A DNA stretch of 20,218 bases, taken from positions 1-20,218 of IMG/VR virus record IMGVR_UViG_3300011113_000008; one strand, 5' to 3'. Origin of the DNA: a virus. The notes under the pieces were generated by a model that saw only the letters and a list, made by a program, of their open reading frames with translations, made no database searches and had not been told where the DNA came from. Numbering within the stretch: the first letter of the stretch is position 1; each line of letters starts with the position of its first letter. Made by a program: the position numbers and the translations under genes. Shown piece after piece: positions 801 through 13,062 of this stretch.

Positions 801-2783
801 ATGCCTTTACAATCGACTAGCGGAGCAGCGAGTTATGACGCATTTGGTGGCGGGACAACTGCCAAAGTTAATTACATTGAAGACTTTTTTCAATCTTACT
901 TGCGGACAGGCACTGGCGCATCTGCAACTGTTACTACTGGCTTAGATGGTTCTACCAAAGAAACCTTGGTGTGGACAAAATCACGTTCTGCCGCTACTAA
1001 TCACAAGCTGACAGACAACGTACGTGGGGCTACTAAAGCCCTAAGTAGCAACACAACAGGTGCAGAAGCTACAGATAGCCAAGGCTTGACTGCTTTTAGT
1101 GCCACTGGCTACACGATTGGTACAAATACTGACTACAACAATAGCGGTGCAACTTATGTTGACTGGCAGTGGGTATCGCAACCAAAGTTCTTTGATGTTG
1201 TGACTTATACGGGTGATGCAGTTTCAACAGGCTATCAATCAATTCCTATTCCAGCATCTTTTGGTACAGGTGCTGATCTTGGTTGTTATATTGTTAAAAA
1301 TACATCCAATGCTGAAGACTGGTATGTATGGCATAGAGGAAATCCTGTTAGCGATGATTATGGAAGTTTAAACAGCACTGCTGCTTTTGGAAGTCCTCCC
1401 GGTGAAAGGGGATGGGGCGTTAGTGGAAATACTTTTGTTGTTGGTGGCGGTGCAAGGAACAATAATGGCAATAGAAGTGGCAACACATACGTCGCCTACT
1501 TATTCGCCCACAACGCAGGAGGCTTTGGCCTAACTGGTACAGACAATGTGATTTCGTGTGGGTCTGTTTCTGTAACTAATTCAACTCAAAGTGTAAGTGT
1601 TGGTTATGAACCGCAATGGATTTTGTGGAAAAAATCTAGTGGCATAGGTTCTTGGTGGATGTTTGACACCATGCGTGGTTTGGTTGTTGATAACGGGTCA
1701 GGAACTGGTGATAAAGCTCTTTACGCAGAATTATCAAACGCTGAAACAGGAACTTATGGCATTGACCCAACTGCCACAGGTTTTCAATTATCCGCTGGAT
1801 GGGGTGCTGGTGACTACATCTACATAGCCATTCGTAGAGGCCCAATGAAAGTGCCTACGAGTGGGACGAGTGTGTTTAACACGATGCTTGTTACTGGCAA
1901 TGGAACAAATGAAAGGCAAATTACTGGTGTAGGTTTTCCTCCTGATTTACTCATTGGAAAAAGAAGATCATCTGCCCTTTTGCCACTTTGGTTTGACAAA
2001 CTTAGGGGCAAAGAACGCTACCTTGATTCAAGTTCAACAAGCGCAGAAACTGCATTAGCCGCTGGTAATGAAGGCTTAATGTTGCAAGATGGCTTTGTCA
2101 TTGATAACAACTACGGCAGTTTGAATGTAAATGGAAGCACCTACGCTGATTGGGTAATGAGACGCGCCCCCAGTTTCTTTGATGAGGTTTGCTATACAGG
2201 GACGGGAGTAGCAGGTAGAACTGTTACGCACAACTTAACTGTTGTCCCAGAGTTGATGATTGTTAAAGGCAGAAGTAATGCAGGGCAATGGCGTGTTTAC
2301 AGTAGTGCATTAGGTGCAACTCAGGCGGCACGATTAAATTCCACAGATAGTTTTGGCTCTAATCCATACGCTTGGAACGACACAGCACCTACGGCATCTG
2401 TTTTTACTGTTGGCGATGACACGGGTGTTAATCAAAATACTTACACTTATGTCGCCTACCTATTTGCAACTTGTGCAGGTGTTTCCAAAGTAGGAAGCTA
2501 CACAGGTACAGGCGCAACACAGACCATATCTTGTGGTTTTACTGGGGGCGCGAGATTCGTCCTCATTAAGAAAACAAGCGGTACGGGTTCGTGGTACGTC
2601 TGGGATAGTTCACGGGGTATCGTGTCTGGTAATGACCCTTACCTTTTATTGAACTCTACTGCGGCTGAAGTTACCAATACAGACTACATTGATACTTACT
2701 CAGCAGGTTTTGAAATTAGTTCAACAGCCCCCTCAGAAATCAACGAAAATGGCGGTAGTTTTATCTTTTTGGCGATTGCCTAG
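801..2783 (+). CDS. Tail fibre-like protein with repeated DUF7483-type modules
   Basis: A 660-residue protein rich in Gly, Ser, Thr and aromatic residues, with the repeating beta-rich layout of phage tail fibre or adhesin proteins often labelled DUF7483. The N-terminal part has LVWTKSRSAATNHKLTDNVR and later a TYVDWQWVSQPKFFDVVTYT stretch. A module then recurs: W-x-V-W/Y near residues 173 and 496, LNST, TYVAYLFA near 230 and 550, ISCG, a hydrophobic IL-x-KK-x-SG-x-GSW strand, and a short (M/S)RG segment. The end is SFIFLAIA. AGGA about 10 bases upstream supports the ATG. Genes on both sides are homing endonucleases. A receptor-binding or distal tail role is likely from family and context; the receptor is unknown. 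Bases 801-2783 show no frameshift. Confidence 0.82.
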   Translation: MPLQSTSGAASYDAFGGGTTAKVNYIEDFFQSYLRTGTGASATVTTGLDGSTKETLVWTKSRSAATNHKLTDNVRGATKALSSNTTGAEATDSQGLTAFSATGYTIGTNTDYNNSGATYVDWQWVSQPKFFDVVTYTGDAVSTGYQSIPIPASFGTGADLGCYIVKNTSNAEDWYVWHRGNPVSDDYGSLNSTAAFGSPPGERGWGVSGNTFVVGGGARNNNGNRSGNTYVAYLFAHNAGGFGLTGTDNVISCGSVSVTNSTQSVSVGYEPQWILWKKSSGIGSWWMFDTMRGLVVDNGSGTGDKALYAELSNAETGTYGIDPTATGFQLSAGWGAGDYIYIAIRRGPMKVPTSGTSVFNTMLVTGNGTNERQITGVGFPPDLLIGKRRSSALLPLWFDKLRGKERYLDSSSTSAETALAAGNEGLMLQDGFVIDNNYGSLNVNGSTYADWVMRRAPSFFDEVCYTGTGVAGRTVTHNLTVVPELMIVKGRSNAGQWRVYSSALGATQAARLNSTDSFGSNPYAWNDTAPTASVFTVGDDTGVNQNTYTYVAYLFATCAGVSKVGSYTGTGATQTISCGFTGGARFVLIKKTSGTGSWYVWDSSRGIVSGNDPYLLLNSTAAEVTNTDYIDTYSAGFEISSTAPSEINENGGSFIFLAIA

Positions 2784-2785
2784 AC

Positions 2786-3445
2786 ATGAAAAGCGGAATT
2801 TATCACATCAAGAATACTGTGAGTAACGGCATCTATTTTGGAAGGTCTGTTGATGTTCCAGATAGATTGTCGCACCACAGACAACAATTAAGGCGTGGTG
2901 TTCATGTTAACAAGCGTTTGCAACATTCATGGAATAAACATGGTGAGCAAGTATTTGAATTCAAAATGGTTTGGGAAGAAACTCAAGATAAGCTAGAAGA
3001 ACTTGAAGGTTTTATTCTTGAGGAAGTATGGGGCAATGAGAGATTGTTTAACCATCACAAACTATCTGCTGGTGGATTCTTGCCAAACAATAAACTAGGT
3101 TGTTTTACAAGGTCAGAAGAAACTAAAAAGAAAATGAGTGTTGCCTTTAAGGGCCGTGAGTTTTCTGAACAACATAAGCAAAAGATTGCAGTAGGTAAAA
3201 CTGGTTTAAAAGCTAGTGATGAAACCAAAAAGAAAATGTCAGATAAAAGGATTGGTAAAGCAAGACCTCAATCATGGCATGACAAGATGGCTGAATATAG
3301 GGAAAACAACCCAAACCCTATGCAAGGCAAGATTAGCCCCATGAGAGGAAAGAAGTTCCCTACTATTGCTTGTGAGCATTGTGGTAAGGAAGCCTCAAAA
3401 GGAAATTACTTACGCTGGCATGGAAATAATTGTAGGAGCAAATAA
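2786..3445 (+). CDS. GIY-YIG homing endonuclease with NUMOD3 repeats and zinc finger
   Basis: Second predicted homing endonuclease, 219 residues. The nuclease domain (1-95) has GIY at 4-6, IYFG at 16-19 in place of YIG, R27, and E74 in the helix LEELEGFIL. HKLSAGGFLPN closes the domain. Residues 108-157 hold two NUMOD3-type repeats (SEETKKKMSVAFKG and SDETKKKMSDKRIG with a linking SEQHKQKIAVGKTG), which bind DNA along the minor groove in related enzymes. The C-terminus has C196-x2-C199-x12-H212-x3-C216. This finger has the same spacing as, and is clearly related in sequence to, the one in the endonuclease at 205-798, although the nuclease domains differ. The gene begins two bases after the fibre stop and its TAA overlaps the next ATG (TAATG). 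Confidence 0.9.
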   Translation: MKSGIYHIKNTVSNGIYFGRSVDVPDRLSHHRQQLRRGVHVNKRLQHSWNKHGEQVFEFKMVWEETQDKLEELEGFILEEVWGNERLFNHHKLSAGGFLPNNKLGCFTRSEETKKKMSVAFKGREFSEQHKQKIAVGKTGLKASDETKKKMSDKRIGKARPQSWHDKMAEYRENNPNPMQGKISPMRGKKFPTIACEHCGKEASKGNYLRWHGNNCRSK

Positions 3446-3948: not shown

Positions 3949-6900
3949 ATGGCTATTTCTGACGCATTGCGTTATCAACTTAATACAGGTGGTTCTGCGG
4001 ATACCCTGTATGGAATCATTCGTGATTTTCTTGCTACAAACCCAGATGCTGCTACTACTCAAGCACAGATGGCTCAGTATGGAATCTCTGGTGAAGACGT
4101 AGCCAATGCTACAGGTGGTAAATCAGGTGGTTTGCTTAGTGGCAACATCTTAGCGGGTGCTAGTTGGAATAGTTCTAACACTGCTTTACAGAACCAACTT
4201 ACTGAGGCTACTGGTCAACAAACGGCTAACTATGCTGTTGCTGGCTCTACTACTTCTGACACTCTTAAACAACTAAATACATTCTTAGCAGGTGGTGGTC
4301 AGTTTGATCCTAATGCTACTGTTTACTTGCAAGCAGGTGGTGTTGACTTTATTACTGGCGTAGATAAAGGTGTTGTTAAAGATAACCTAAACCAGATCGT
4401 TAAGACTCTTGGCGATCAAGGTGTCAATGTTGTTCTTACTGGCTCGCCTTATGCTAAGTCTGTTGAAGATGTAATCACTAACAACTTTGATCCTAAAGTT
4501 GACCAGATTTATACAGATGTTGCCAAGGCTAACTCTAATGTTGCTTTAGTTGGTACTCAAGGTGAGATTCTGCAAAACAAGAAATTGTTGGTAGATGCTT
4601 TACATACCAACGCTGAAGGTACTGCAGTCTATAACCAATCAGTTATTGATGCTTTATCTCAGTTTAAGAATGAAGTTCCATCTAGCACTCCGCAAGCTAT
4701 TGCACAAGTACAACAGACAAATACTGTAGCTACAACTCCCCCAGTTATTACTCAGGCTGCTGAAAATCCTGATGTTGCTCAATCATTAGTTAGAGCAATT
4801 CCTACTCCTCGTGGTCGGGTGATTGAAGGTGACAACATTGAAGCGCAAATGGCTGGTGTTCCTCAAGTTGTTTATGAGACTAAAGTAGACCCCAACAATC
4901 CTGCCAACTGGCAAACTGTTAATCCTAAAACGGGTGAAGTAATCAACTCAGGCACTTTTGCTGGTGGTGGTGATCGTGGTTTATTAGCCGCTGCTGCTCC
5001 TGTCATTGGATTGGCTGCATCTACTGTTGGTCTGCCTTTTATTTCAGGTCTGTTAGGTGGAGCTACTGGCTTGACAGGCTCTGCTTTGGCTGGTGCTACA
5101 GGTGCAACCATTGGTGGTGGAACAACTGCAATAGCAGGTGGTACAGGTAAAGATATACTTAAAGGTGCTTTGCTTGGTGGTGCTGCTTCTTATGGTGCAT
5201 CTGCATTGGATAACTATCTTGCTACTGGTTCTACTGCTGACGTTGGATTGACAGAGCGTCAGTTTGCTATTCAAGATGCCAAGAACTTAGCAAGCCAAGG
5301 TTTATCAACTACTCAAATTGCTGATACTTTGACGGCTGGTGGGTATAACGACATAACTGTTCAAAGAGCAATATCTTCTTTAACAGGCACTGCAGCATCA
5401 ACATTGCCAATACCTGGCGCTGTAAATGTTACTGGTACTGCTGCACCTGCAATTAGTACGGGTGGTTTATTGAGTAGTGTAGTTGCTCCAACAACTACTG
5501 CAACTACTACTCCAGTAACGCAAGGTGGAACTGTAAATGTAACTGGTGCGGCACAACCACAAATGGTAGATCAAGCAACTTTAAATTTGGTTGCTAATCA
5601 ACTTGCTTCTAATTTAGGAACTAACGCTAACTTAGCAAATGTTCAAATTACAGCAGACAGACCAGCTTCTGCGCAAGAGATTACAAATGCAATTCTTGCA
5701 ACTGTACCTAATGTAACTCTTCAACAAGCACAAACTCAAGCACAAGTATTGATTACAAGTGGTCAGAACTTAACTACTAATGATTTGGTTACTGCTGTAT
5801 CTTCTGTTTCGCCAAACATTACTAATAGTGTTGCAGAGCAGATTATTACTAGTTCAAATTCAAGTTCTATCCCGTCAGTAGTTAACTCTTTGGCGGCAGT
5901 TACTGCATCAACAATTCCTGCTAGTTCGATTGCAACTCAAACAATTACTGGCAAAAGAGAACCTGGCATTACCAGTGATATTACTGCTGCAACAATCCCG
6001 TTGATTCAGCCAAGTACGCCATTAACATTGCCTGAAATACCAAAGCAAACAACAACAGCATCCAATCCTTTGCTTAACACGGCAGGGACTTTAGGCTTAT
6101 CAAGTTTGCTATCAGGATTGCCTAACTTGATCTCTGGTGGTCTTGGTACTGCGGGTAATCTTTTGCAGATGCAAACGTCAAGAGAAGCAGCTCAACGTGC
6201 GCAAGCAATGATTGATGCTGAGACAAAAGCGGCTAAAGATGCGGCTCAGTTCAGACCTATTGGCATGACCACAAGGTTTGGTACTTCTCAGTTTGGTTTT
6301 GATCCTGCCACTGGTAGATTAACAAGTGCTGGTTATGCCTTAACACCTGATGTTAAAGCCCAACAAGATCGTTTTATGGCTTTGTCCAATCAAGGTCTGA
6401 CACAAGCAGAACAAGCACAAGGACAATTTGCTCCTCTCCAGACGGGCGCACAACGTCTATTTGGTTTGGGTAATCAATACTTGGCTCAATCTCCAGAGGC
6501 AGTTGCCCAGAACTATCTGAACCAACAGATGGCTTTGCTACAACCAGGTCGTGAGTTAGAACTTGCTAATCTGCAAAATAAACTCCAACAACAAGGTCGT
6601 GGTGGTCTATCTGTGGCTCAAGGTGGAACTATGGGTGCTACTACTCCTGAACTACAGGCTCTGTACAACGCTCGTGCCCAACAAGAAGCTCAATTAGCTG
6701 CTAATGCACAACAAGCGGGTCAAAGAGATGTCATGTTTGGTGCGGGATTGTTAGGTCAAGGTGCGGGTGCTATGGGGCAGTATTATTCTGGTCAACAAGC
6801 CGCTTATGCGCCTTATACCGCTGCTTTGGGTCAGGCTCAGACCTTGGAGACATTAGGTCAACAACCTTACAACATGGGTGTTAACTTGGGTCAACTTGGC

Positions 6901-7164
6901 GCACAAGCAGGATTTAATGTTGGTCAACTAGGCTTAAAAGGTGCACAGATTAGCGCAGGTTTAGCTACAAGTGCTGATGCAACACGCAATCTCTTGGCTC
7001 AAGGTTTAACTGCCGCAGGTAATCCTAATGCGATGTTTGGTCAAGCATTGGGCGGTTTGTTTGGAGGTGGTCTTCAATCTGCGTTTAGTGGAACTGGTTT
7101 AGGTGCATCAGGTTTTGGCACTGGATTGGCTTATGGCAATCAAGACCTCGGCTTGTTCTTATAA
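3949..7164 (+). CDS. Large virion-associated protein with an N-terminal SGNH hydrolase-like domain
   Basis: A 1071-residue protein, probably carried in the virion (internal or ejected, or tail-associated). Residues 1-57 form a short helical module. Residues about 64-235 show the SGNH/GDSL blocks in order: LAGASW with the candidate nucleophile S72; NYAVAGSTTSD with G99; VYLQAGGVDF at 125-134, where GxND reads GGVD; VVLTGSPY; and VDALHTNAEG with D216 and H219. The middle is Ala/Thr/Asn-rich and carries a VNVTG-like motif at about 492, 529, 565 and 664. The C-terminal third is Gln/Gly/Ala-rich with coiled-coil potential (QTSREAAQRAQAMIDAETKA). AAGGAG seven bases upstream supports the ATG. The hydrolase call is from motif order only; the substrate is unknown, perhaps acetyl or acyl groups on host surface glycans. 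Confidence 0.75.
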   Translation: MAISDALRYQLNTGGSADTLYGIIRDFLATNPDAATTQAQMAQYGISGEDVANATGGKSGGLLSGNILAGASWNSSNTALQNQLTEATGQQTANYAVAGSTTSDTLKQLNTFLAGGGQFDPNATVYLQAGGVDFITGVDKGVVKDNLNQIVKTLGDQGVNVVLTGSPYAKSVEDVITNNFDPKVDQIYTDVAKANSNVALVGTQGEILQNKKLLVDALHTNAEGTAVYNQSVIDALSQFKNEVPSSTPQAIAQVQQTNTVATTPPVITQAAENPDVAQSLVRAIPTPRGRVIEGDNIEAQMAGVPQVVYETKVDPNNPANWQTVNPKTGEVINSGTFAGGGDRGLLAAAAPVIGLAASTVGLPFISGLLGGATGLTGSALAGATGATIGGGTTAIAGGTGKDILKGALLGGAASYGASALDNYLATGSTADVGLTERQFAIQDAKNLASQGLSTTQIADTLTAGGYNDITVQRAISSLTGTAASTLPIPGAVNVTGTAAPAISTGGLLSSVVAPTTTATTTPVTQGGTVNVTGAAQPQMVDQATLNLVANQLASNLGTNANLANVQITADRPASAQEITNAILATVPNVTLQQAQTQAQVLITSGQNLTTNDLVTAVSSVSPNITNSVAEQIITSSNSSSIPSVVNSLAAVTASTIPASSIATQTITGKREPGITSDITAATIPLIQPSTPLTLPEIPKQTTTASNPLLNTAGTLGLSSLLSGLPNLISGGLGTAGNLLQMQTSREAAQRAQAMIDAETKAAKDAAQFRPIGMTTRFGTSQFGFDPATGRLTSAGYALTPDVKAQQDRFMALSNQGLTQAEQAQGQFAPLQTGAQRLFGLGNQYLAQSPEAVAQNYLNQQMALLQPGRELELANLQNKLQQQGRGGLSVAQGGTMGATTPELQALYNARAQQEAQLAANAQQAGQRDVMFGAGLLGQGAGAMGQYYSGQQAAYAPYTAALGQAQTLETLGQQPYNMGVNLGQLGAQAGFNVGQLGLKGAQISAGLATSADATRNLLAQGLTAAGNPNAMFGQALGGLFGGGLQSAFSGTGLGASGFGTGLAYGNQDLGLFL

Positions 7165-7173
7165 GGAATCATC

Positions 7174-8703
7174 ATGGCAGAAAATATCGTAGCGGGTCTG
7201 TTTGGTTTGACTCCACAAATGTATCAAAACCAACAGTACAACCAAGACCTTAAAAGAGGCTATGAGTTGGCACAACTCTCCCCTGGTGCTGCGGCTCAAG
7301 CGGGTCTACAGGCTAGTGTTGGTCAACTAGGTCGTGGATTTGCAGGTGCTATGGGCATAGAAGACCCTCAGTTGAAGATGATTACGCAACAAGCGCAGTT
7401 ATTGCAAGGCTTGAATTTGCGTGATCCGCAATCTTTGGAAGCGGCGGCAATACAAGCTAATCAAATGGGTAATACGCCATTGGCTATAAAATTACTTGAT
7501 TTATCAGATGCAGCTCAAGTTAGAGCGCAGCAGATGCAAACACAACAACAGACTTCTTTAGCCCAACTTATTGCACAACGTGCATATCAGCCTGGCATTC
7601 CCGAAAGACCACAGATGTTGGATGTTCAGGAACGTCAGCAGATGTCAGATCAAGGCACTCCAATGCCTGAGAACATTCCTGCTGTTGCACCAAGTTATGA
7701 CATTCGCAGAGTTGCTCCTCAGTTGCAAGCACTTGGTGCGCCTGGCATTGCTCAATTAACTGCTGCATTGGCAGTACAAAAAGCAATGAGACCAGAGACA
7801 GTTTCGCTTAAAGAAGGTGAGAAACTTTACACAGTTCCGACTGAGGCTGGTCAAAGTTACAAAGAAATTGCTACTGGCGGTGAAAAACCAAGACCATTTA
7901 CAGGCGATTTAGCAAATGCTGCAAATGCTTTGTATAGAACTGATGATCCGGCTAAAATTTTTGCTCAATATGGTCAAGCAGGCATTGACGCTGTTGAGAA
8001 AAAAGCATTAACAATGACTGAAGCAAAACGACAAATTGTCAATGTAACAGCTCCAGTTTCAATCAATATGCAAAAAGGTTTTGGTGAAGATTTAACTGAA
8101 ACTTTAACCGCTAATTTAAGGGGTGGCAGAGTTGCAGGAAACACTCTTGGTACTGTACAGAGCATGAAAGCCTTGATTGAAGAAGGAACAAAGACGGGAT
8201 TTGGTGCTGATACTATGGTTCAATTAGCTAGAGTAGGACAAGCATTTGATCCAAACTTTAAAGTTTCAGGAGTTGCAGGTGCTGAAGCATTCCAAGCATT
8301 TTCCAATTCTGTGATTTTGCCAGAGGTGAAGAAACTTGGAGTTAATCCAACTGATACTGACTTGAAGTTTATTGTTCAAGGCTCACCAAGTCTTTCAAAG
8401 TCTCCGCAGGGTAACTTAATTCTGTTGGACACATTGGAGTTAAAACTTCAGCGTGAACAAGACTTGGCTAAATTTAGCAATCAATGGTTAGCCCAAAATG
8501 CTAATACTGTTAAAAACAATCCAATTATTGCTCAAACACAATTTAATGATGCGTTTAATAACTATGTTCAAACAAGTCCACTTTACAAGCCACAAGCAGA
8601 TGTACTGCGTCAACGCATAATTCAATTGCAAACAACTGGCGCTGGTAGAACACCAACTCCTGCTCGAAACACATTGCAACGTGGTAATTTCATAAATCCT
8701 TAA
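7174..8703 (+). CDS. Putative internal virion protein, 509 aa
   Basis: I do not recognise a named family. The protein begins MAENIVAGLFGLTPQMYQ and has a Gln- and Ala-rich N-terminal half with strong helical and coiled-coil character (LRDPQSLEAAAIQANQMGNT, and a run of Gln around residues 115-130). The C-terminal half is more globular (FGADTMVQLARVGQAFDPNF, QGSPSLSKSPQGNLILLDT) and has a long helix ending in FSNQWLAQN. There is no signal peptide or membrane segment. AAGGAA upstream supports the ATG, and the gap to the previous gene is nine bases. Size, composition and its place between two other large helical proteins fit the set of ejection or core proteins that some short-tailed phages carry. 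This is an inference from context. Confidence 0.65.
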   Translation: MAENIVAGLFGLTPQMYQNQQYNQDLKRGYELAQLSPGAAAQAGLQASVGQLGRGFAGAMGIEDPQLKMITQQAQLLQGLNLRDPQSLEAAAIQANQMGNTPLAIKLLDLSDAAQVRAQQMQTQQQTSLAQLIAQRAYQPGIPERPQMLDVQERQQMSDQGTPMPENIPAVAPSYDIRRVAPQLQALGAPGIAQLTAALAVQKAMRPETVSLKEGEKLYTVPTEAGQSYKEIATGGEKPRPFTGDLANAANALYRTDDPAKIFAQYGQAGIDAVEKKALTMTEAKRQIVNVTAPVSINMQKGFGEDLTETLTANLRGGRVAGNTLGTVQSMKALIEEGTKTGFGADTMVQLARVGQAFDPNFKVSGVAGAEAFQAFSNSVILPEVKKLGVNPTDTDLKFIVQGSPSLSKSPQGNLILLDTLELKLQREQDLAKFSNQWLAQNANTVKNNPIIAQTQFNDAFNNYVQTSPLYKPQADVLRQRIIQLQTTGAGRTPTPARNTLQRGNFINP

Positions 8704-8715
8704 TGGAGTAAAAAA

Positions 8716-10773
8716 ATGGCAACCCTAAAAGATCAAATTACTGACCTGCAAAATGAACTCCTTGTTGCAAAAGATGAAGGAAAAATAACTCCAGAAGGCG
8801 TGAAATTGTTAGGTCAAATTCAAAGTGGGCAATGGCAAACTGGTGGTTTTGGACAATTCTTGAAAGGAATGACAGCAAACTTTTCAGATGAAGGAATTGG
8901 TGCTTTAAAGTCTTTTATTTCATCTGAACCAAAAGCTATTTCAGAAGCAATAAAGAAAATCAACCCACAAGAACCACAACCAACACCAAGAGAAGTTGGT
9001 ACTGCTCTTGAGAGAGTTGCTCAATCAGAATACTCACAAGAAAATCCTTTTAGGTCTGCTGCCTATCAAGTCGGTGGCGCAATGGTTCCATCACTTGTGA
9101 CAAAACGACCAGGCCCACAATCAATGATTGGTCAAATGGGTTTAGCTGGCCTTGTGGGTGCTACTTCTGGTGTTGGTGAATCTGAGGCTGAATTGTTTAG
9201 CCCAGAAACAGGAAAAGAAGCATTAACAGGAACTGGCATAGCAATGGCATCTGTGCCAATTGCAAAAGGATTTGGGCTTGTTATTGGTAAAGGTTACAGA
9301 TCAGCAGTAAGTGCCATGTTTGACAACCCACAAAGAATGGGTGTAGATCAATCTAGGGCAATGATTAGAGAGGCTTTAGGCGCAGACGCTGGTGGCGTAG
9401 ATGAGGCCATTAAGATGATCCTAGACAAGGCTGGAAAGCCTTATACGCTTGCAGATATTGGCCCTAATTCAAGGGCATATTTGGATGCTGTAAACCAGTT
9501 GCCTGGGCCTGGCAAACAAGCCGCCAAAACATTTTTAGAAGACAGAGACAAGGGTTTACTTAAGCGCCTGACAAGCGATATGCAAGTTGCGTTTGGTAAC
9601 AAGGCTGCTTACTTTGATGAGTTCAATGCTTTAAAAGAAGCACGTTCAGCTATTGGTGGTAAGTTGTACGGAGCTGCTTTGCCAAGGCCAGTTGAGATTA
9701 CTACCGAATTTACTGAGTTGCTTCAGCGCCCAAGCATGAAACAGGCTTATGACAGAGCAGTTAATTTGGCTCAAGAACAAGGCATCAAATTGCCTAAAGT
9801 TCAAATTAGTGCAGAGGGTAAATTAGTAACTGATAAAGGATTACCAGTTACAGACATAGACACTACTTTCATGCACTATATGAAAATGGGACTTGATGAT
9901 TTGGTATATACAGGAAAATCACCAACATCAGGTATAGGCAGCACACAACTTGGTGCAATTAAGCAAACAAGAGGTGAATTTATTGATTTACTAGATAATT
10001 CAAATCCTGCTTATAAAAGAGCTAGAAATTATTGGGCAAACGATACTGCTGTTTTAGATGCCATGAATGAAGGTAGAACAATTTTTAGCAAAAAACCTGC
10101 TGATTTAGATGCACTTTTGAATGATGTAAAAACCATGTCAAAGTCTGAAAAAGACGCATTGAGACTTGGCACTATGCAAAGTCTTCTTGATCGTCTTGGT
10201 GGCGCTCAAACAGCAGACACAATGGTGAGCGCAGTTGGAAACCCTGCAATGGATATATTGAAAAATCCTAAAAATGTTAGGATTATTAAAGCAACATTTG
10301 ATAGTGATGAGGCTGGTCAAAAGGCTTATAACAAGTTTATGAGTAACTTAATGAGTGAGGTGGAAATGAAAACCACTTCTAAAGTTGTTTTGCAAGGCTC
10401 ACAAACTGCTGGACGTACTGAGGCAATCAGAACAATCAAAGAAGGCGCTCAAAGAGAGTTACCAGTTATGACGGGCGCACAATTCATTATGAGAGCTTTG
10501 CAAAGAGATTTTCAAGACCTTGGCGATCAACAACTCAAAGCTACTGCCAGTGAAATTGCAAGGGTTTTAACAACAAGTGACCCAACCAAATTGCAAAGAA
10601 TTGCTAAAGAGTTGGCGGGTAATGACATCAGAACTGTTTTGCGAAAAGAAGCGCCAGAAGTGTTGCCAATTTTAGGTAGAGCATTGCTTGGCCCGTTCTC
10701 ACTTGGCTCAATTGGTGGAAATGTTGCTCCCAATATTAACCAAATGGCAACAGGTATGTTGTCTGGTCAATAA
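8716..10773 (+). CDS. Putative internal or ejected virion protein, 685 aa
   Basis: A largely helical 685-residue protein with no catalytic motif that I can see. It starts with an amphipathic helix MATLKDQITDLQNELLVAKD. Residues about 44-65 read FGQFLKGMTANFSDEGIGAL, a pattern (G-x-x-x-N-F-x-DE) familiar near the N-terminus of phage DNA-transfer and internal proteins. A Gly/Ala-rich stretch around 140-190 could pack against or enter a membrane. The central part has YTLADIGPNSRAYLDAVNQL and several long helices. GGAG upstream supports the ATG; the preceding gene ends 12 bases earlier. As third in a row of large late-region proteins, it may help deliver DNA across the cell envelope. I saw no lysozyme or transglycosylase motif. 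Confidence 0.65.
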   Translation: MATLKDQITDLQNELLVAKDEGKITPEGVKLLGQIQSGQWQTGGFGQFLKGMTANFSDEGIGALKSFISSEPKAISEAIKKINPQEPQPTPREVGTALERVAQSEYSQENPFRSAAYQVGGAMVPSLVTKRPGPQSMIGQMGLAGLVGATSGVGESEAELFSPETGKEALTGTGIAMASVPIAKGFGLVIGKGYRSAVSAMFDNPQRMGVDQSRAMIREALGADAGGVDEAIKMILDKAGKPYTLADIGPNSRAYLDAVNQLPGPGKQAAKTFLEDRDKGLLKRLTSDMQVAFGNKAAYFDEFNALKEARSAIGGKLYGAALPRPVEITTEFTELLQRPSMKQAYDRAVNLAQEQGIKLPKVQISAEGKLVTDKGLPVTDIDTTFMHYMKMGLDDLVYTGKSPTSGIGSTQLGAIKQTRGEFIDLLDNSNPAYKRARNYWANDTAVLDAMNEGRTIFSKKPADLDALLNDVKTMSKSEKDALRLGTMQSLLDRLGGAQTADTMVSAVGNPAMDILKNPKNVRIIKATFDSDEAGQKAYNKFMSNLMSEVEMKTTSKVVLQGSQTAGRTEAIRTIKEGAQRELPVMTGAQFIMRALQRDFQDLGDQQLKATASEIARVLTTSDPTKLQRIAKELAGNDIRTVLRKEAPEVLPILGRALLGPFSLGSIGGNVAPNINQMATGMLSGQ

Positions 10774-12127: not shown

Positions 12128-12622
12128 ATGTTAGATATTCTTAGTGGTGGTTTATTAGGCTCTATCTTTGGTGGCATCTTTAGGATGGCGCCAGAGGTGC
12201 TCAAATGGCTCGATAAGAAAAATGAAAGAGCGCATGAACTCTTGATGTTTTCCCGTCAGTGCGAACTGGAGCAACTGCGCGGTCAGCAAAAGCTGGCTGA
12301 AATTGGTGCTCAAAGAGAGGCTGCCATTGATGTGGGCGTGATGGATGCGTTTAATAATGCCATCACTCAGCAGGCCGAAATGGTCAAGGCTGCAGGTGGA
12401 TGGGTTGCATCATTGAGTGCTAGTGTCAGGCCGCTGGTAACTTATTGGGTGCTATTTGTCTGGTCGTTCATTCATGTGTGGTTTGCATGGAATGCGTGGC
12501 TTGCTGGTGCGCCTGCTGTAGAAGTGTTTAAAACCATGATGACTCCTGATTTCTCAGCCCTGCTGTCTGGAACAATCAATTATTGGTTCCTTGATAGAAC
12601 TCTTGCCAAGCGTGGAATATGA
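12128..12622 (+). CDS. Holin, GTA_holin_3TM type
   Basis: A 164-residue inner-membrane protein of the three-TM holin type found in gene transfer agents and many phages (PF11351 as I recall it). A Gly-rich hydrophobic N-terminus (3-20, with GSIFGGIF) is followed by a charged helical stretch with NERAHELLMF and an Arg/Gln-rich coiled coil (42-66). Then comes the family-typical RP at 101-102 before TYWVLFVWSFIHVWFAW (105-121) and a last hydrophobic segment ending NYWFLDRTLAKRG. Holins open the inner membrane at a set time so the lysozyme can reach the wall. The partner is the GH24 lysozyme that starts in its ATGA stop overlap. The lysozyme has no signal, so it needs such a hole. Confidence 0.87.
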   Translation: MLDILSGGLLGSIFGGIFRMAPEVLKWLDKKNERAHELLMFSRQCELEQLRGQQKLAEIGAQREAAIDVGVMDAFNNAITQQAEMVKAAGGWVASLSASVRPLVTYWVLFVWSFIHVWFAWNAWLAGAPAVEVFKTMMTPDFSALLSGTINYWFLDRTLAKRGI

Positions 12623-13062
12623 ACCTAGAGTTAGCTGCCGCTTTGTGCCGCCAATTTGAGGGCTACCGCGCCAAGCCGTACTTGTGTCCGGCTGGCGTGG
12701 CTACGATTGGCTATGGTTCTACCTACTACGCAGACAAACGCAAAGTGACTTTGGAAGACCCACCAATGGATGAACCCACGGCTAGGGCGCTTTTGATGAT
12801 TGAGCTGGAACATACCTACCTGCCTGGCGCTTTGCGTAACTGTCCAATTCTTGCAACTGATGAGCGCAAGTGCAACGCTATTGTGGATTTTTGCTACAAC
12901 CTTGGAATTGGCAGACTTCAAACATCAACCCTCAAACGCAAGATAAACGCAGGGGATTGGGACGGGGCAAAAGAGCAATTGATGCTGTGGACAAAAGGGG
13001 GCGGTAAGGTCTTGCCTGGTTTACTCAAACGCAGACAGGCCGAATGCGCTCTTATTCTTTAA
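12619..13062 (+). CDS. Endolysin, GH24 lysozyme (T4/P22 type)
   Basis: A 147-residue muramidase that cleaves the beta-1,4 bond between N-acetylmuramic acid and N-acetylglucosamine in the cell wall. The catalytic block FEGYRAKPYLCPAGVATIGYGST contains E14, then C23 where T4 lysozyme has Asp, then T29, with the exact E-x8-C/D-x5-T spacing of the family. Cys at the second site is also seen in some lambdoid endolysins. The C-terminal half has CNAIVDFCYNLGIG and GLLKRRQAECALIL, both typical. There is no signal peptide or signal-anchor, so release depends on the holin encoded just upstream (ATGA overlap). Its last 11 bases overlap the end of the convergent - strand gene. Confidence 0.94.
   Translation: MNLELAAALCRQFEGYRAKPYLCPAGVATIGYGSTYYADKRKVTLEDPPMDEPTARALLMIELEHTYLPGALRNCPILATDERKCNAIVDFCYNLGIGRLQTSTLKRKINAGDWDGAKEQLMLWTKGGGKVLPGLLKRRQAECALIL

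Follow-up and report, generated by a model that had tools for sequence, protein, structure and literature searches.

The DNA analysed, a 20,218-base uncultured virus record (the window), carries an open reading frame for a modular, putative virion protein of 1071 aa, in which a helical head, an SGNH-fold module, a hydrophobic Gly-rich segment, a T/S/A-rich linker, and a C-terminal core follow one another (Table 1). The genes in this region are arranged in the order tail fibre, tail chaperone, the SGNH-core gene, and the genes for proteins of 509 and 685 aa. The initial annotation had placed an SGNH-like domain at 4130-4660, at the head of the large protein. The domain does lie at the N-terminal end, but the assigned extent was slightly short, as the module occupies residues ~60-244 (4126-4680), and it is preceded by a helical head of ~57 aa. 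Relatives without the SGNH module have heads similar in form to this one. The hydrophobic segment is possibly a membrane-active part. Two plus-strand ORFs of the homing-endonuclease type, at 205-798 and 2786-3445, encode GIY-YIG proteins with NUMOD3 motifs (the second NUMOD3 match being just under the cut-off) and flank the tail-fibre gene.

Table 1. Coordinates in the window of the SGNH-carrying protein, its parts, and neighbouring genes
Feature	Position	Strand	Basis or details
Whole modular protein, 1071 aa	3949..7164	+	ORF list and translation
Helical head, residues 1-57, IRDFLATNPDAATTQAQMAQYGISGEDVANATGG type	3949..4119	+	AF2 helices 5-12, 17-30, 34-42, 48-54
SGNH-fold module, residues 60-244	4126..4680	+	Pfam, AF2, Foldseek, alignment
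Block I LAGASWNS, residues 68-75	4150..4173	+	Nucleophile S72 at 4162-4164; A71 replaces the GDS Asp; N74
Block II NYAVAGSTTSD, residues 94-104	4228..4260	+	Oxyanion-hole G99 at 4243-4245
Block III VYLQAGGVDF, residues 125-134	4321..4350	+	Q128; V132 replaces Asn (4342-4344); D133
Block V LLVDALHTNAEG, residues 213-224	4585..4620	+	D216 at 4594-4596; H219 at 4603-4605
Hydrophobic segment, residues 345-365 (LLAAAAPVIGLAASTVGLPFI), opening the Gly/Ala-rich region	4981..5043	+	Kyte-Doolittle scan
T/S/A-rich, charge-poor linker, residues 441-720	5269..6108	+	Composition; length varies among relatives
C-terminal core, residues 735-1071	6151..7161	+	Relatives with the same part
509-aa downstream protein	7174..8703	+	gp15/gp20-like ejection place, judged from order and size only
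685-aa protein (phrog_5880)	8716..10773	+	Place of a gp16-like ejection protein
Tail fibre (DUF7483)	801-2783		Separate gene from the SGNH protein

SGNH fold and canonical sister modules

Judged by its sequence scores taken alone, the window domain is borderline. PF00657 (Lipase_GDSL) matched the N-terminal 254 aa with 24.9 bits against a cut-off of 23.6, and reached up to 34 bits on window-type relatives, while solved SGNH esterases matched the domain weakly (E 0.004-0.006). Relatives were collected by scans of IMG/VR, which gave more than 100 loci; a second scan, with a diverged member as the query, added a set 60-69% identical to that member. Sister modules with 34-42% identity to the window type were found in the same protein type at loci L140 (4225-7020), L127 (4270-7011), and L210. 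They read LAGDSW and IGGNDL, the canonical forms of block I and block III, and a sister module was matched by PF13472 at 47.5 bits and by SGNH esterases of the PDB at E ~3e-8. That the sisters in the same protein type keep GDSW and GGND proves the descent of the window module from SGNH enzymes. Block V of the three sisters reads LVDASGFH, with Ser at the position of the DxxH Asp and an Asp two residues earlier; it might act as a Ser-His dyad, of a kind known in CE2 (PMC9487903).

The structure was predicted from an alignment combining window-type and sister-type modules. The AF2 model of the domain had a mean pLDDT of 82.7, exceeding 90 across most of residues 121-230, and displayed the SGNH order of strands and helices (alpha/beta/alpha), in which the Ser follows the first strand of the domain and D216-H219 lie in the loop ahead of the last helix. 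Nearly all Foldseek matches in the PDB were SGNH enzymes, including TesA of P. aeruginosa (4jgg, TM 0.74) and TAP of E. coli (TM 0.69). The sister modules with canonical blocks, the AlphaFold model, and the Foldseek matches together settle the fold: by prediction and by descent, residues ~60-244 form a genuine SGNH-type (TesA/TAP-like) domain. The SGNH-like assignment made earlier thus holds, with a PF00657 score above the cut-off, sister homology, AF2, and Foldseek in agreement, and no other fold came out of the structure prediction.

The module shares fold, topology, and the order and spacing of the blocks with TesA/TAP-type hydrolases (4jgg, 1ivn, CrmE10 7c23, and AlinE4 7c2a), together with the block I Ser, the block II Gly, and the DxxH of block V. 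It differs from them in having Ala for the GDS Asp, Val for the block III Asn, and Gln for the acidic residue four positions before this Asn. Moreover, it is a putative enzyme and is fused to a phage protein.

Neither the module nor the whole protein had a match among GenBank phage proteins, where the sister module gave weak, mostly unrelated SGNH matches. The module had no match in GTDB genomes, so that a recent bacterial donor was not found, and an NCBIfam search yielded nothing useful. An uncharacterised phage protein in UniProt, A0A6J5LR05, already includes the module (86% identical).

Active-site residues of the window clade

For residue conservation, 92 window-clade sequences and the three canonical sisters were combined into one alignment (n = 95). 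The motifs lie where the initial annotation had put them, LAGASW at 68 (S72), VAGSTTSD at 97 (G99), GGVD at 130 (V132 and D133), and DALHTNAEG at 216 (D216 and H219), and the triad that it described as intact is present, with S72 and H219 in 95/95 sequences and D216 in 92/92 of the clade. A loss of S72 or H219 among homologues was therefore not seen; W73, G99, G130, G131, and D133 are likewise invariant in all 95. The two substitutions reported before, A71 and V132, are confirmed and fixed in 92/92 clade members, as are N74, S75, Q128, D216, and L218, whereas the three sisters have D, L, A, D, N, S, and F at positions 71, 74, 75, 128, 132, 216, and 218, respectively. In the terms of canonical SGNH enzymes, the block I Ser, the block II Gly, and the DxxH of block V are present in the clade, and the Asp of block I GDS and the Asn of block III are absent. 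By its sequences, the GAS/GGVD form is a fixed subfamily.

This pattern bears on whether the module is still an enzyme. Identity within the clade drops to 54%, and other sites of the module, such as Y168 and D185, vary. The dN/dS ratio was 0.13 for the whole module and 0.03 for block V, the strongest purifying selection among the blocks. However, near-invariant columns make up about a third of all alignment columns, so conservation supports catalysis and does not prove it. The blocks were only marginally enriched in invariant columns or in clade-diagnostic ones (P = 0.06 each), and conservation alone is accordingly weak evidence. A switch between TCN and AGY codons at S72 was considered as a test of selection, and only AGY was seen.

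An unlikely, though serious, alternative is that the SGNH fold was kept while catalysis was lost, so that the module now binds a host envelope glycan or acts as a spacer. Both the GDS Asp and the block III Asn are gone throughout the 92 clade members, and loss of this Asn abolishes the activity of OatA (PMC9487903). Replacement of the module by unrelated N-terminal modules (the DUF4214-type heads described below) would also fit a binding or adaptor role. Yet the catalytic Ser, Asp, and His are invariant in the clade even at 54% identity, the block holding the Asp and His is the most constrained one, and a domain that only binds would have no obvious need for all three residues. Other SGNH enzymes without the Asn are also active (PMC9487903). 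The conservation part of this argument has limited power, given the share of near-invariant columns mentioned above.

The nature of the substitutions can be compared with TesA, where Asp8 (the GDS Asp), Glu71, and Asp47 bind two conserved waters together with the amides of Gly73, Gly74, and Asn75 (PMC3715468). By HMMER alignment and motif order, Glu71 of TesA corresponds to Q128, Asn75 to V132, and Asp8 to A71, the last equivalence resting on motif order. The window clade has thus lost an acid, a second acid, and the Asn of one water network together, whereas the sisters keep Asp, Asp, and Asn. Because A71, Q128, and V132 were replaced as a set, the co-ordinated Ala/Gln/Val replacement looks like remodelling, not decay. 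As the active site is altered consistently in dozens of relatives, the module may perform unusual chemistry on the host envelope.

Several SGNH-type families have an oxyanion hole without the usual Asn side chain: SASA (CE6) uses a block I Gln instead, BcPatB1 (DHHW) a block II Arg, and XOAT1 (PC-esterase) residues near the block I Ser (PMC9487903). Changing the block III Asn of OatA to Ala abolished activity (PMC9487903), and for this reason V132 could also mean a dead enzyme. Unlike SASA, the window clade lacks the block I Gln and the block III HQGE motif; unlike BcPatB1, it lacks the block II Arg, with the block II Gly kept. No sequence match of the clade to the SASA, BcPatB1, or XOAT1 families was found. 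We infer N74 and Q128 as candidate stand-in residues of the oxyanion hole.

A very improbable reading of the same residues is an acyl transferase-like activity, in which a hydrophobic block III residue would exclude water and an acyl group would be moved onto an envelope glycan, or off it to another acceptor, instead of being simply hydrolysed. The plant xylan acetyltransferase XOAT1 is hydrophobic at the position of the block III Asn and draws on Asp/Asn near the block I Ser, and OatA shields its pocket with Val residues (PMC9487903); the window clade has V132 and an invariant N74 two residues past the Ser. However, no donor-supplying partner (MBOAT/AT3) was recognised among the window proteins scanned, the closest folds are hydrolases, and an ejected protein would be a poor place for a donor-dependent transferase.

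Exchange of the module among phage proteins

The C-terminal ~337 aa of the window protein recur in 94 unique complete ORFs, and the SGNH head is present in 29 of them. The core also occurs as a stand-alone protein of 336-350 aa. The contig G007 has just 1,244 bases in common with the window (98% identical, 6133-7376, corresponding to the core) and has no SGNH module. At locus L254, positions 9150-10393 match window 6133-7376 at 98% over 1,244 bases, a stretch that takes in the core and the first part of the following gene, and there is hardly any other match; judged from the sequences, this match is a recombination patch inside a putative virion-protein gene. Loci L109, L182, and L190 have a DUF4214-type head at the same N-terminal place; a DUF4214 domain within a phage structural protein could likewise be a binding module that is exchanged.

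Conversely, the SGNH head is joined to other C-termini. It was found on a protein encoded in the portal-scaffold interval (G003), on one encoded in the capsid/tail-fibre interval (G002), and, at loci L301 and L303, on a part matching the 'DNA ejection' family phrog_598. The portal-scaffold protein is present without the SGNH head in GenBank MW202710.1. As the core occurs with or without the module, and the module heads several unrelated proteins, the SGNH domain is, by these comparisons, a swappable module.

Giant proteins at L311, L312, L313, and L316 carry the SGNH module as well. Very long PA/PT repeats are present in those of L312 and L313, and the proteins of L311, L312, and L313 end in the motif 'SDxIPAMxxxxEFVxxADxVSALG', which matches tape-measure families. 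A further carrier, at L238 (3313-6720), is longer than 1,130 aa, being cut by the contig end; the parts before and after the module differ from those of the other carriers.

Gene order and a proposed role at DNA ejection

At L301-L303, a head-closure Hc3 gene (that of L303 matching phrog_578 at E 3.5e-94) is followed by the SGNH-ejection fusion and then by a gene for ~480-550 aa (in L301, the contig cuts the next gene). The fusion part matched phrog_598 at E 3.7e-7 in L301 and 1.5e-6 in L303. The SGNH-ejection fusion in these loci stands at the position that gp7 has in P22. In the window, the series of the core, the 509-aa protein, and the 685-aa protein resembles the order and sizes of gp7-gp20-gp16 (compared with PMC8954989). 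Weak similarity links the 685-aa protein to a 'putative DNA transfer protein' of Phage DSL-LC05. The window's own C-terminal core had no match in PHROG, its hhalign comparison with a phrog_4287-like ejection-family protein was not significant, and its AF2 model was poor (pLDDT 56); for these reasons ejection is deduced from the relatives and the gene order. On this basis, the window protein is probably a component of the virion that enters the host along with the DNA.

The comparison with P22 gp7 and T7 gp14 (phrog_598; PMC8954989) therefore has two sides. The phrog_598-like C-terminal part of L301 and L303 stands behind an Hc3 gene, and the gene order and downstream sizes of the window are compatible with this type. 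On the other hand, gp7 and gp14 are proteins of ~180-240 aa without an enzyme, whereas the window protein has 1071 aa with an SGNH head, and its own core matches no family. The peptidoglycan-hydrolase domain that T7 has in gp16 can instead be found in the gp15 homologue (PMC8954989), and the moving SGNH head would be an analogous case.

A surface location was weighed against ejection. In this quite unlikely alternative, the module would be displayed on a tail or head fibre and work as a depolymerase or deacetylase prior to DNA ejection, like the known phage tailspike deacetylases. Some tail fibres and tail-tip proteins are known to carry SGNH domains (PMC5380687, PMC7048315), BFVD matches are named tail fiber or esterase, genes for the tail fibre and for tail assembly are located shortly before the SGNH-core gene in the window, and one version of the module is encoded between capsid and tail-fibre genes. 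However, the search of the 1071-aa protein revealed neither a fibre nor a beta-helix domain, the protein carries a hydrophobic Gly-rich segment, and the fused C-terminal cores resemble ejection or tape-measure-associated parts. A tailspike was rejected as the first-choice reading because of the missing fibre domain and the ejection- and tape-measure-like fusion partners. The role at entry suggested in the initial annotation is plausible, but the context points to an injected, ejection-type protein in preference to a surface tailspike. Phi11 gp44, 80alpha gp59 (Tal), and the tail-fibre and tailspike deacetylases resemble the putative virion protein of the window in having an SGNH fold and a presumed action on the cell envelope during entry. 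They are tail tips, fibres, or spikes, whereas the window carrier looks internal and of the ejection type, and its active site is altered.

Our preferred explanation, to which we give a probability of about 0.55, is that a modified, probably catalytic SGNH domain on a gp7/gp14-like ejection protein cuts (or transfers) ester groups of the envelope. Under this proposal, the swappable module heads a long phage protein built of several parts, the core of which takes the position expected for the first DNA-ejection protein (P22 gp7 or T7 gp14). When a cell is infected, the protein would be released from the virion ahead of the DNA, bringing the module to the outer membrane or periplasm, where S72-H219-D216 would cleave the ester. 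As the substrate, an O-acetyl group of peptidoglycan or another envelope glycan would be most likely, and the acyl chains of phospholipid or LPS would be less probable. The atypical oxyanion hole would be formed by the amides of S72 and G99, and an invariant side chain, for example that of N74 or Q128, might serve as a new donor. From its residues and its predicted fold, the SGNH module is probably, though possibly not, catalytic. Other positions in the virion are possible as well, since versions of the module are encoded between portal and scaffold genes and between capsid and tail-fibre genes.

The stronger proposal, that the Ala/Gln/Val set with the triad kept is a new oxyanion-hole design and that the cassette has moved among DNA-ejection proteins, injecting an ester-cutting or ester-transferring activity into the periplasm, is doubtful at present. 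No description of an SGNH domain in an ejection or DNA transfer protein was found in the open-licence papers searched by full text. The known virion SGNH enzymes are on tail fibres, spikes, or tail tips. If true, the few activities that phages inject with their DNA, among them the peptidoglycan hydrolase of T7 gp16, would be joined by ester chemistry from a swappable SGNH cassette on proteins of the ejection type. A natural comparison is offered by the canonical GDS/GND and remodelled GAS/GVD forms, which occupy one position within a single protein type, and the pair lets one ask how an SGNH enzyme works, or retires, without its oxyanion Asn. Elsewhere in the window, positions 12619-13062 on the plus strand encode a phage lysozyme (PF00959, E 2e-32), probably the endolysin.
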